Assembly (NCBI GenBank): GCA_016125375.1
Contig: WGLU01000002.1
Coordinates: forward strand, 62,001-126,000
Reading direction: 5' to 3'
Length of the DNA stretch: 64,000 nt
Source of the DNA: Pseudomonadota bacterium
GTDB lineage: Bacteria > Pseudomonadota > Alphaproteobacteria > UBA1280 > RI-95
Under the pieces are notes generated by a model that saw only the letters and a list, made by a program, of their open reading frames with translations, searched no databases and was not told the origin of the DNA. Numbering within the stretch: position 1 is the stretch's first letter; the number at the start of each line of letters is the position of its first letter. Made by a program: the position numbers and the translations under genes. Positions 28,550-33,092 of the stretch are shown here, piece by piece.

Positions 28550-29445
28550 TGGAAAACCTGTATGCGCACAGGGATATTCTTTTCCTCAGGCTGGTGCTGC
28601 TCATCAGCGGCCTGCACAGTTTTTATGCCCCCGAAGCTGTCATGCTCACCCAGCCTATCGCCCTGCTGGCGCTGCTGCCCGAGAACATGCTCAAGTCGTC
28701 TGCGCTCTGGATACCTGTCACATGCGTGAGCACCCTCTTCCTTATGCAGGGGTACTACTTCGTCGGCAATCAGAAGTTTGTGCATCTGTACACCTGTCTT
28801 GCCATTCTGATGTGCCTGAACAGCAGGGAAAGTTTTGGGCATACCCTGCAACGTTGCGCACTTATTCTGCTCGTATACGTGTTTTGTTCGGCTGCGTTCT
28901 GGAAGCTTTCCTCTCCCTCTTTCCGGCATGGCGACATGATGGCCTATCTGATGCTGCCCGGGGGTACATTCTCTCCTTTCGGGCAATTTGCGGATTGGCT
29001 GGCCGGCACTTCACAACCCCCAGAAACCATGCAATTGAATGCGGAAACGTTGCGGCAACTGCGGCAGGCACAATTCCCGGTATTTGCGCATCTGAGCATT
29101 TCCCCGGCACTCGCAACGGCGGCACTGGTCCTGAGCTGGTACAGCCTGCTGACGCAGGCGGCCATCGGCCTGACAGCGCTGGTGAACCTCACCCGTTACC
29201 GTAAACCCTGGACCGAGTGGGTGATGCATATTCTGCTGGTGGAGTTCATCATCATTGCCTACCCGCTGACGCAAGTACTGGGTTTTGGCATGCTCTTGTG
29301 CGCGATTGGCATCGCCAGCCTGAGCAACAGGACACGTGCGCTGCTGCCGGTATATCTGCTGCTGGCTGGGGTATTGATGTGGTATGACCTGCCCTGGAGC
29401 CGCCTACTGGGTGGCGGCTCCTGGACAGTGTTTGCGTCCTACTGA
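28537..29445 (+). CDS. HTTM-like polytopic membrane protein
   Basis: 302 residues with about eight helices. The segment VFCSAAFWKLSSPSFRHGDMMAYLM followed by more helices resembles HTTM (horizontally transferred transmembrane) proteins, relatives of vitamin-K-dependent gamma-carboxylase, where a K-x-x-x-x-x-W/F-x-x-G loop is shared. Catalytic residues cannot be confirmed. GGAAGGTG precedes the ATG. Its end overlaps the convergent Hint-protein gene by 7 bases. Confidence 0.65.
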   Translation: MRSVVENLYAHRDILFLRLVLLISGLHSFYAPEAVMLTQPIALLALLPENMLKSSALWIPVTCVSTLFLMQGYYFVGNQKFVHLYTCLAILMCLNSRESFGHTLQRCALILLVYVFCSAAFWKLSSPSFRHGDMMAYLMLPGGTFSPFGQFADWLAGTSQPPETMQLNAETLRQLRQAQFPVFAHLSISPALATAALVLSWYSLLTQAAIGLTALVNLTRYRKPWTEWVMHILLVEFIIIAYPLTQVLGFGMLLCAIGIASLSNRTRALLPVYLLLAGVLMWYDLPWSRLLGGGSWTVFASY

Positions 29446-31043
29446 GGTATGAGCGCGGTGGTTGTCAGCGGTTCGCCGTCATGCTCGACGTGGACCTGAT
29501 AAAGCCCTCCACTATCCGGCACAAAGCTCATCACCGCCATGTTGTTGACGTAGTAGACGGGATTACCTTCCAGCACAAAGTTATACAGGCGTGTATCCTT
29601 CTGGTGCTGGTAAACGGCAATGCTGTCTACCTTGAGGGTTTGACCGCCGTAGAGGGCAATCTCATCCCCGACCTGTAGCTGCTGCACCTTGCCATCCAGT
29701 ATGTCCCATGCCTCTTTCTCCGCGTCCTGAGGCAGCAGGGCTACCCAGCCCTTGGTCGTCAGCACCGGGTGATTGTTGGTAAAAAAGGCTTTGCCACCGT
29801 TAATGGAGATAAGGCGCTGATAGTCCCAGTCCTTATGTTCCATCACCGGGCGGTCGAGCGCACTGACGCGGGTTGGCTTGCCATCGCCTCCCATGAGCAG
29901 CTCGCCGACTTTTATCTCTTCTATCGGTTTATTGCTGCCATCGGCCATCAACACCGTTGCCCCCGCTGCAAAGCAGGAGTTACAGGAACGCTGGCCAGAA
30001 CATGGTCCGCTACAGTAACCCTGACTGACCGACGAGCCGCAGACACATAGATAAGCCTGTGAACTGGAGCACCAGGTCGAGCCGTTCGAGTGCGATCCAC
30101 ATCCGCCGCAGCCGCTTGTTGTGGTGGTTGTGCCTGATGGCGCGTCCGACGTACAGTTGATGGTTGTGCCGTTTGTGGTGCACCACTTGCCGTTCGTCAG
30201 CGACCCGACTTTGGGGTCAGTCTCACTCAATAGACCCGCATCGGCCAGACATTCCCAGTTGGAGCCTGTCCAGCGCAGTTTCTGCCCTGTTCCACACGCC
30301 GGCGGCGTTATATAGGCATGGTTGGCAGGTACCGATGCATCGCACAGGACCTGACTGCCATTGCTGCGGCATAAGCTACCATTGACAAGCGTCCCGACCT
30401 GCGGGTCTGTTTCCGTTGTCCCGGCAGTTGCGCCCAACGCATCGTTTACGCATGTCCATGACGTGCCCGTCCACTGGATTTTTTTATCGCCCACACAGGT
30501 GGGGATGCTACCGACGTTGCCACTGCCAACATAAAGCTGGTCAGATGTGACACGGGCATTCACACGCATGTTATTGTCAAAGTTGGTGGCACCGGTTACG
30601 TCCATCGCGTTATTGACGGTTAACTTACCGTTGGCGGTGGTTGTGCCATTAACTGTCAGGGTATTATTGAGTGTCGTATTTCCGCTTACCGTTGCCCCGC
30701 CTGCCGTCACGTTAACGCCGTTGTTAAACGTGCCCTGCCCTGTCAACGTTGCATTACCCGTTGCTGCGTTAATCGTGAAGGCCGTAATGCAGCCGCCCAA
30801 ATCCGCAGACGGATTTGTAGGTGCATACAAGCGCCCCTGCGCCGTACAGGCATTCATACGGGCATTCTCGCTATTTAAGGCTGTGATTTCTGCGTTGGAT
30901 TTGGCGCCTTCTGCGCCGCCGCGGCTGGAAGAGGAGAAGAATTTATTTTGAGCGTCTGCAATCTGTGGCGTCATTGCCCAAACCGCTGCACCCATGACAA
31001 GAACTGCAAGAACAGCTTGTCGTATCCGATAATGAGTCTGCAA
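29439..31043 (-). CDS. secreted fibre-like protein with C-terminal Hint domain (copy 1)
   Basis: 534 residues from a TTG start with GGGGGTG ahead; its paralogue keeps the same start context. After a signal peptide comes a conserved Cys pair region (MNACTAQGRLYAP...GGC), a Asn/Thr/Gly-rich beta-repeat stem (about 85-165), and two copies of a motif DP-VG-L-NG--C---G---C (about 210-300). A Cys-rich spacer precedes the Hint domain from C357 (SCFAAGATVLMADGS), with block B TNNHP (T422-H425) and a late block NFVLEGNPVYYVNN. The terminal HN of inteins is replaced by MS, so splicing is unlikely. Cleavage or ester formation at C357, as in Hedgehog, remains possible. Confidence 0.8.
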   Translation of the reverse strand: MQTHYRIRQAVLAVLVMGAAVWAMTPQIADAQNKFFSSSSRGGAEGAKSNAEITALNSENARMNACTAQGRLYAPTNPSADLGGCITAFTINAATGNATLTGQGTFNNGVNVTAGGATVSGNTTLNNTLTVNGTTTANGKLTVNNAMDVTGATNFDNNMRVNARVTSDQLYVGSGNVGSIPTCVGDKKIQWTGTSWTCVNDALGATAGTTETDPQVGTLVNGSLCRSNGSQVLCDASVPANHAYITPPACGTGQKLRWTGSNWECLADAGLLSETDPKVGSLTNGKWCTTNGTTINCTSDAPSGTTTTTSGCGGCGSHSNGSTWCSSSQAYLCVCGSSVSQGYCSGPCSGQRSCNSCFAAGATVLMADGSNKPIEEIKVGELLMGGDGKPTRVSALDRPVMEHKDWDYQRLISINGGKAFFTNNHPVLTTKGWVALLPQDAEKEAWDILDGKVQQLQVGDEIALYGGQTLKVDSIAVYQHQKDTRLYNFVLEGNPVYYVNNMAVMSFVPDSGGLYQVHVEHDGEPLTTTALIPQ

Positions 31044-31127
31044 GATGCACCCCCAAGGTTAGATGTTCATACCCCTGCATTGTACATACTTATCTGAGCG
31101 CTCATAAGTGTAAAACACCCGGCCAAA

Positions 31128-31150
31128 TGACATTAACATAATGTAATTAC
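31128..31150 (-). promoter_or_regulatory. upstream element shared by both Hint genes (copy 1)
   Basis: A 23-bp stretch (TGACATTAA...TGTAATTAC on the plus strand) matches 33000-33022 upstream of the second copy at nearly every base and contains the palindrome GTAATTAC. A further shared CTCATAAGT lies between it and the start codon. It is probably a promoter or operator. Confidence 0.5.
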
Positions 31151-31220
31151 TGAACTTTTTAATATTATCCAACATGCTGAATGCATCTTCCACGACAAAA
31201 GCACTCATTTTGCCTGCCTG

Positions 31221-32921
31221 TTAATCCGGCAAGGCTGATAGCGTGACAGGTTCACCGTTATGCTCGAGATGGACCCGATACTGACCCGCCTGGTCCGGTA
31301 CAAAGCTCATCACCGCCATTGCGTTCACGTAATAGACCGGATTACCTTCCAGCACAAAGTTATAGAGGCGCGTATCCTTCTGATGCTGGTAAATGTCTAT
31401 CCTATTGACCTTTAATGTTTTTCCACCGAAGAGGGCAATATCGTCACCAACCTTAAGCTGACGCATTCTGCCCTGTAGAATATCCCACGCCTCCGGCTCG
31501 GCATCCCGGGGTAAAAGTGCGGCCCAGCCGCCGGTTGTTAACACCGGGTGATTGTTCGTGATAAATGCCTCTCCCCCGTTGATGGCAATCAGACGTTGGT
31601 GATCCCAGTCCTTATGTTCCATCATCGGGCGGTCAAAAGCAGCCACACGTGTTGGCTTGCCATCGCCCCCCATGAGTAGTTCACCGACCTGAACATCCTC
31701 TATGGATTTGTTGCTGCCGTCAGCCATCAGAACCATGGCTCCTGCCGCAAAACAGGATCGGCAGCTCCGGTCTGCATTATGGTGGGTGCAAGAACCTGAG
31801 GCATACGTCCATACGCCGCTATCGCAACGGAAAATAGCCGAACCGGCCCACCCGCTGCTGCATTCACTGTAGGCGAGGTCGTCGGCAAAGTTACTGGCTG
31901 TATCGGGTGCAGCAGCTATCCGCGCACCACAGCCGGACCCCCACGATACGTTTGAGGTTGAACAAGGCGTGCCAGCCGTTGGTGCGTTCTGATCGCACAG
32001 GACCTGTACCCCATTCGTGCGGCACCATTTGCCATTGGAGAGAGTCCCCACCTGTGGATCATCTTCCGTCAGCAGACCTGCGTCGGCCAGACATTCCCAT
32101 GTCGAGCCGGTCCATCTAAGTTTTTGCGCGGTGCCGCAAGCAGGCGGCGATACATAGGCATGGCTGTCGGGCACGGTTGCATCACACAAAACCTGCGTAC
32201 CGTTACTACGGCACAGCCGGCCGTTCACCAATGTGCCGACCTGCGGGTCTGTTTCTGTTGTCGCTGCCGTTGCGCCAAGGGCATCATCCACACAGGACCA
32301 GGCTGTACCGGTCCATTGGATTTTCTTATCTCCGGTACAGGTAGGTACGTTGCCGATGTTACCGTTGCCTACGTACAGCTGATCAGACGTCATGCGCGCA
32401 GCAACGCGCATATTGCCGTTAAAATTGGTGGCACCCGTAACATCCATTGCATTATTGACGGTGAGCTTGCCTGTAAAGGCTCCCGTACTGCCAAACGTTG
32501 CAGCTCCTGTAAAAGCGGATGTACCACCAACCGACAGGTTATTGTTCAAAGCTGTATTACCCGTGATAGCCGCGCCGCCGGCGGGCACATTTATCCCGTT
32601 ATTGAAGCGGCCCTGCCCGTTCAGCGTCGCGTTACCCGTTACCGCATTGACCGTAAAGGCAGCAATGCACCCCCCGGCGTCCGACGCGGGATTGGTGGGC
32701 GCGTAAATGTGTCCTTGTGCCGTACAGGCATTCATGCGGGCGTTTTCGCTATTTAAAGCCGTGATTTCTGCGTTGGATTTGGCGCCTTCGGCCCCGCCAC
32801 GCGTAGATGTTGAGAAGAACTTGGTTTGTGACGCTGCAAGGTGCGGTGCGCCACTAACAAAGGTTGTTGTAATTACCGTCATCAGGAGAATGGACCGTAG
32901 TACCAGAAAGCGATCGTTCAA
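31221..32921 (-). CDS. secreted fibre-like protein with C-terminal Hint domain (copy 2)
   Basis: 566 residues from TTG 32921 with GGGGGTG ahead. The domain order is that of the downstream copy: signal peptide, N-terminal Cys region, repeat stem (one repeat longer, about 110-145), two DP-VG-L-NG motifs, and a Hint domain from C390 (SCFAAGAMVLMADGS, TNNHP, NFVLEGNPVYYVN). The two copies are very alike except just before the Hint cysteine, where this one has an unrelated segment (GSGCGARIAAAPDTASNFADDLAYSEC and more). This points to module exchange next to the cleavage site. The tail after the Hint domain is about 27 residues in both. Confidence 0.8.
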   Translation of the reverse strand: MNDRFLVLRSILLMTVITTTFVSGAPHLAASQTKFFSTSTRGGAEGAKSNAEITALNSENARMNACTAQGHIYAPTNPASDAGGCIAAFTVNAVTGNATLNGQGRFNNGINVPAGGAAITGNTALNNNLSVGGTSAFTGAATFGSTGAFTGKLTVNNAMDVTGATNFNGNMRVAARMTSDQLYVGNGNIGNVPTCTGDKKIQWTGTAWSCVDDALGATAATTETDPQVGTLVNGRLCRSNGTQVLCDATVPDSHAYVSPPACGTAQKLRWTGSTWECLADAGLLTEDDPQVGTLSNGKWCRTNGVQVLCDQNAPTAGTPCSTSNVSWGSGCGARIAAAPDTASNFADDLAYSECSSGWAGSAIFRCDSGVWTYASGSCTHHNADRSCRSCFAAGAMVLMADGSNKSIEDVQVGELLMGGDGKPTRVAAFDRPMMEHKDWDHQRLIAINGGEAFITNNHPVLTTGGWAALLPRDAEPEAWDILQGRMRQLKVGDDIALFGGKTLKVNRIDIYQHQKDTRLYNFVLEGNPVYYVNAMAVMSFVPDQAGQYRVHLEHNGEPVTLSALPD

Positions 32922-32999: not shown

Positions 33000-33022
33000 T
33001 GACATTAATCCATTGTAATTAC
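33000..33022 (-). promoter_or_regulatory. upstream element shared by both Hint genes (copy 2)
   Basis: The counterpart of 31128-31150, at a similar distance from the TTG start (about 80-85 bases), with the palindrome GTAATTAC at 33015-33022. Confidence 0.5.
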
Positions 33023-33092
33023 TTATATTTTAATATAATCAAACATTATGAATTAATAGAAAATGGCGGCAGTCAGACCCCATTCATGCGAA

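Follow-up and report, generated by a model that had tools for sequence, protein, structure and literature searches.

Two tandem alphaproteobacterial genes for putatively secreted proteins with unlike tips ahead of a type B-like, Hog-like C-terminal Hint domain

Organisation of the gene pair

The window, i.e. the whole stretch of 64,000 nucleotides of alphaproteobacterial DNA that was analysed, contains two tandem genes on the minus strand, gene 1 (product P0001) and gene 2 (product P0002), both ORFs lying where an earlier note on this DNA had placed them. Their products are 66% identical overall and are built on the same plan, with the following parts.

29439..31043, minus strand: gene 1 (P0001), 534 aa, TTG start; signal peptide, stem, Cys-rich tip, Hint, tail
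30951..31043, minus strand: gene 1 signal peptide, residues 1-31, cut after ADA (by eye)
30138..30950, minus strand: gene 1 stem, residues 32-302 (comparison with gene 2 and model)
29991..30137, minus strand: gene 1 variable Cys-rich tip, residues 303-351 (shuffled-sequence test; low model confidence)
29526..29975, minus strand: gene 1 Hint domain, residues 357-506 (Pfam, motif blocks, AlphaFold2, Foldseek)
29442..29525, minus strand: gene 1 C-terminal tail, residues 507-534 (model confidence mostly low)
31128..31151, minus strand: upstream element AGTAATTACA-N5-TTAATGTCA before gene 1 (window and genome search)
31221..32921, minus strand: gene 2 (P0002), 566 aa, TTG start; architecture as gene 1
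32829..32921, minus strand: gene 2 signal peptide, residues 1-31, cut after AAS (by eye)
31980..32828, minus strand: gene 2 stem, residues 32-314 (comparison with gene 1)
31770..31979, minus strand: gene 2 variable Cys-rich tip, residues 315-384 (shuffled-sequence test and genome search)
31305..31754, minus strand: gene 2 Hint domain, residues 390-539 (Pfam, motif blocks)
31224..31304, minus strand: gene 2 C-terminal tail, residues 540-566 (codon comparison)
33000..33023, minus strand: upstream element AGTAATTACA-N5-TTAATGTCA before gene 2 (window and genome search)

Each TTG start is preceded by a near-identical ribosome-binding site, GGGGGTG. The element further upstream has two matches in the window, both ahead of the gene pair, for an expectation of 0.01, and these two sites are also its only matches genome-wide (one chance match for the reversed control).

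Both copies do carry, as had been proposed, a C-terminal Hint domain behind a signal peptide and stem, but codon comparison shows the signal peptides to be only 16% identical; since they were judged by eye, export of the two proteins is given here as probable. The other regions are much closer (NG86 estimates): 85% identity and dN 0.09 for the KFFS domain at the start of the mature protein, 78% and 0.15 for the stem, 81% and 0.11 for the Hint, 62% and 0.32 for the tail. In these comparisons dS is above 1 or not computable, i.e. saturated, so the duplication must be old. The substitution pattern argues strongly that stem and Hint have both been under strong purifying selection since then, and selection on the Hint could act on its fold alone.

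A Hint domain without its C-terminal chemistry

The assignment to the Hint superfamily made earlier is upheld by matches to Pfam Hom_end_hint above cut-off (1.7e-12 and 2.5e-12 for the two genes), by a profile search in whose alignment a single residue of one row was mistyped, and by an AlphaFold2 model built from 15 rows, for which Foldseek gives E values of about 1e-9 to BIL domains. The pLDDT of this model averages 79.6; it exceeds 90 in the core and falls below 50 over most of the tail. The best Foldseek match is BIL2 of Tetrahymena BUBL1 (6y75, 6tmm; E 6e-10, TM up to 0.81), followed by the C. thermocellum BIL (3.8e-8) and then by inteins, while Hedgehog (1at0) comes out at 4.3e-5 with a TM of 0.61. 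On this model, the predicted fold resembles BIL domains more closely than Hedgehog.

The expected SCFAAGA start and TNNHP block B are present. Both copies keep Cys1 (C357 in P0001, C390 in P0002), which is the single Cys of the domain, and Thr B:7 and His B:10 of TNNH (T422/H425 and T455/H458). The position of the intein HN reads MS (M505-S506 and M538-S539), again in agreement with the earlier reading, and the model sets MAVM(S) on the block-G strand; an alternative placement of block G, at the EHD/EHN of the low-confidence tail, was rejected on these grounds. Positions F:13, G:6 and G:7 are Pro, Met and Ser in both copies, as against the relatives, of which only some have His at F:13. Block F reads LYNF, and F:4 is Asn in all members of alignment A1 instead of Asp, the commonest residue, a point that counts against the cleavage favoured below. 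In the profile alignment a ...MEHK stretch falls near Asp/His46, the general base of Hedgehog, with D41 as a second candidate. Because the HN is missing and the protein ends 28 aa after this position, so that there is no C-terminal extein, splicing by the usual route is impossible, as had been argued.

Relatives at E <= 1e-8 turn up in 19 genomes out of 385 from the class, the genome of the window being counted; a Hint-pattern search for named relatives returned none. The nearest relatives, L014-L017, are C-terminal Hints that end at or just past VHNK. The HN has also been lost in other alphaproteobacterial C-terminal Hints (L063, L064, L072 and L076), and in a further one of the same genome, L075. 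This last gene (also L001; G000:C8, ~154421-155155) has a signal-peptide-like start, adjoins a gene for a thioredoxin-fold (DsbA-like) protein and lies ~1 kb from a KFFS-family gene. A phage origin was considered and rejected: viral contigs gave no match, and among the phage records listed the match is to the Hint part only. Plasmid records match only the Hint part and the residues just ahead of it, at 28-34% identity.

Compared with the described classes, the domain has the fold, the Cys1 and the block-B TxxH of the Hint superfamily. The terminal His-Asn and C-extein nucleophile of inteins are absent, as is the C-terminal His-Asn without +1 nucleophile of type A BILs, and what is found are the intein-like motifs without block-G similarity of type B. 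The latter class was described by Amitai 2003 and Dassa 2004, as cited in PMC4031507 and PMC7765530. Like type B BILs, the Hints of the window have the Hint fold, keep Cys1 and block B, lack the block-G HN and stand beside variable regions of secreted proteins; they differ in lying at the C-terminus, followed by no more than a short tail, and in having the variable part ahead of them. Like the Hog domain of Hedgehog, they follow a secreted part (secretion being judged by eye), have one nucleophile and no HN, and lie at the C-terminus, but in place of a sterol-recognition region they have only the 28-aa tail, and their TM to Hog is the lower of the two given above. BIL2 of BUBL1, although the best structural match, has a terminal Asn (N143) and sits between ubiquitin-like domains (PMC8616854). 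Type C BILs, from Bdellovibrio and other predators, are mentioned in PMC9185962 and occur with a putative predator-specific domain, PPS-1. The best reading of motifs and predicted fold is that of a type B-like, Hog-like Hint. The Hedgehog-like Cys chemistry suggested before survives in part: the residues for N-terminal cleavage are kept, but the sterol-recognition region is absent and BIL is the closer fold.

A constant stem and changing tips

The stem of gene 1 consists of a KFFS..RGG domain with a helix, a beta stem of short repeats and two repeated small beta modules, and contains 10 Cys; in gene 2 the repeat part is 12 residues longer. A whole-protein model (13 rows, mean pLDDT 61.9) gives, in order, the signal-peptide helix, more helices, short strands in series, small beta modules, the tip and the Hint, with very low confidence for residues 301-354, i.e. 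the tip, and a confident Hint. The QxKFFS..RGG domain follows the signal peptide in 9 genes of this genome, and none but the window pair among them bears a Hint. This long stem recurs, with a Cys-rich tip and a ...GDW end, in two more genes and a contig-end piece; three further genes of the family have another long body in common and unlike Cys-containing ends. The same stem with ...GDW is also found in Stappia albiluteola, with a TraG-type coupling protein and an ArdC-type gene nearby, in Telmatospirillum sp. J64-1, with ParB and a tyrosine recombinase nearby, and in genome L094. Both window genes lack the ...GDW C-terminus of the long-stem members and have the Hint in that place.

The tips of the two window genes are unlike. 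Aligned with each other, residues 303-351 of P0001 and 315-384 of P0002 score no better than shuffled sequences (P = 0.62 for protein, 0.45 for DNA), whereas both flanks are ~80% identical; homology between the tips is thus not detectable. The limits first given, 297-356 and 310-389, had to be narrowed, because RSC(N/R)S directly ahead of Cys1 is common to both copies; similarity resumes there, five residues before Cys1. P0001 still has the linker SDAPSGTTTTT that is seen in Hint-less paralogs, and for this reason P0002 looks like the copy whose tip has been replaced. Since Hint-less paralogs carry the same stem with a different Cys-rich tip, unlike tips are a habit of the family, and a constant stem with a changing tip is, on the sequences compared, its normal state. 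The tips of the Hint-less long-stem members are related to one another.

Counting the Cys at -3 from Cys1, the tips have 8 and 6 Cys, and 7 and 5 if it is left out. The mature proteins of the window have an odd number (19 and 17), against an even one in 8 of 9 complete Hint-less members, L005 being the exception; with so few proteins, this suggests that Cys1 would be a free thiol and the other Cys paired. The tip may be held by disulfides and could serve for adhesion.

The exchange of cassettes that had been proposed for the origin of the unlike segments finds no support in this genome. A shufflon-like system, in which a dedicated recombinase swaps them, has in its favour two KFFS-family genes here and one in Telmatospirillum with related tyrosine recombinases in their vicinity. 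In the PilV shufflon adhesins of IncI plasmids, too, a constant stem is combined with a changing C-terminal tip, and the related stem of Stappia stands beside a conjugation coupling gene. However, no related recombinase match is seen beside the window pair, nor any invertible cassette, flanking repeat or pilin domain; the P0002 tip occurs only once in the genome, and no shared or paired repeats occur at the tip edges; the weak matches in the rest of the class are at chance level, several with stops. As the synonymous sites are saturated, the event must be old, and unlike tips being normal among the Hint-less paralogs, we regard such a swap as very improbable.

Known bacterial cases have, to our knowledge, the variable part after the Hint, as in MafB. 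Neisseria MafB with Hint resembles the window pair in its constant secreted part, Hint and exchangeable part, but there the variable domain follows the Hint and here it precedes it (PMC5472700). A variable tip before a C-terminal Hint devoid of C-side machinery is an arrangement known from Hedgehog. What we recognise in the pair is thus a variant, a type B-like, Hog-like C-terminal Hint on a secreted protein of constant stem and changing tip. Relatives that share this stem, some with a Hint and others lacking it, form a natural set on which the role of the Hint can be tested directly and which would tell whether bacteria finish or anchor surface proteins by one-sided Hint chemistry.

Possible fates of the tip

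At the cut site of the Hint, each tip probably either comes free or becomes linked to another molecule or structure. In the reaction that we favour, with a probability of about 0.6, the type B-like Hint forms a thioester, cuts N-terminally and frees the tip or passes it to a nucleophile. The precursor would comprise signal peptide, stem, disulfide-rich tip and C-terminal Hint, the latter standing where the Hint-less relatives end in ...GDW. Once folded, the Hint would let Cys1 attack the peptide bond after the preceding Ser (RSC[N/R]S|C), so that the tip becomes a thioester on Cys1. Water or a thiol would then release Hint and tail, so that the tip acquires a new C-terminus; if an amine or hydroxyl group acts as acceptor, the tip would become attached to it. 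Water is the simplest acceptor, and an amine has a precedent in BIL2 (PMC8616854). Since the residues for the acyl shift are kept and those for Asn cyclisation lost, only thioester formation and N-terminal cleavage are to be expected, and with no C-terminal extein either, only breakage of the thioester could end the reaction. Cutting and attachment are here deduced from sequence. Type B BILs lack block-G similarity and are cleaved without splicing (PMC4031507, PMC7765530); N-terminal-only cleavage is known for them and for Hedgehog (the same sources and PMC9163320).

One alternative is that a lipid, a sugar, peptidoglycan or a protein takes over the tip from the thioester, and that the protein thereby becomes anchored at a cell surface. 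The half-reaction and the architecture with an N-flank only are those of Hedgehog, BIL2 of Tetrahymena makes isopeptide bonds to Lys without ATP (PMC8616854), and the Hint replaces a conserved ...GDW end that may itself serve anchoring. The Hint could thus hand the exchangeable tip to an acceptor on the surface of the same cell or of a neighbour, and so do what the ...GDW end does in Hint-less relatives. Such attachment, suggested already in the earlier note, is made unlikely by the lack of a sterol-recognition region, there being only a short tail mostly modelled at low confidence, and by a fold nearer to BIL than to Hedgehog. An inactive remnant, in which a degraded intein-like domain persists only to cap the protein or to help in export or assembly, would explain the loss of the HN and of the block-F His, the former being lost in the five other C-terminal Hints listed above too; we consider it slightly more unlikely than attachment, since strong purifying selection has preserved all N-side catalytic residues in either copy. 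The Cys at -3 could also lock Cys1 in a disulfide in the oxidising periplasm, cleavage beginning only upon reduction, by analogy with the redox traps of the Pyrococcus abyssi MoaA intein and of engineered Ssp DnaE (PMC3922620). RSC(N/R)S|C puts this Cys exactly at -3 in both copies, with the spacing of the known trap (PMC3922620) and in a motif common to both although the sequence before it differs; the DsbA-like neighbour of L075 would also fit. But the Cys at -3 is absent from L014-L017 and more likely pairs within the tip, because only with it is the number of tip Cys even. A redox gate is slightly less probable still. The favoured reading remains cleavage through the thioester, with release or transfer of the tip.

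Some minor observations concern the neighbourhood of the stem family. The long-stem GDW genes L005, L006 and L007 each have at the 3' end, on the opposite strand, a similar gene of ~460 aa; one of these was tested and has no Pfam match. Contigs C5 and C6 break within family members, at the starts of L007 and L008, which are perhaps one gene split by assembly. The KFFS-family protein L012 matches a phage short tail fibre family (PHROG 4924, 2e-14). Finally, L009 and L011 (G000:C9, near 43400 and 186900) each adjoin a gene for a ~200-aa tyrosine recombinase; the two recombinases are 66% identical, and a similar one lies near the Telmatospirillum stem gene.
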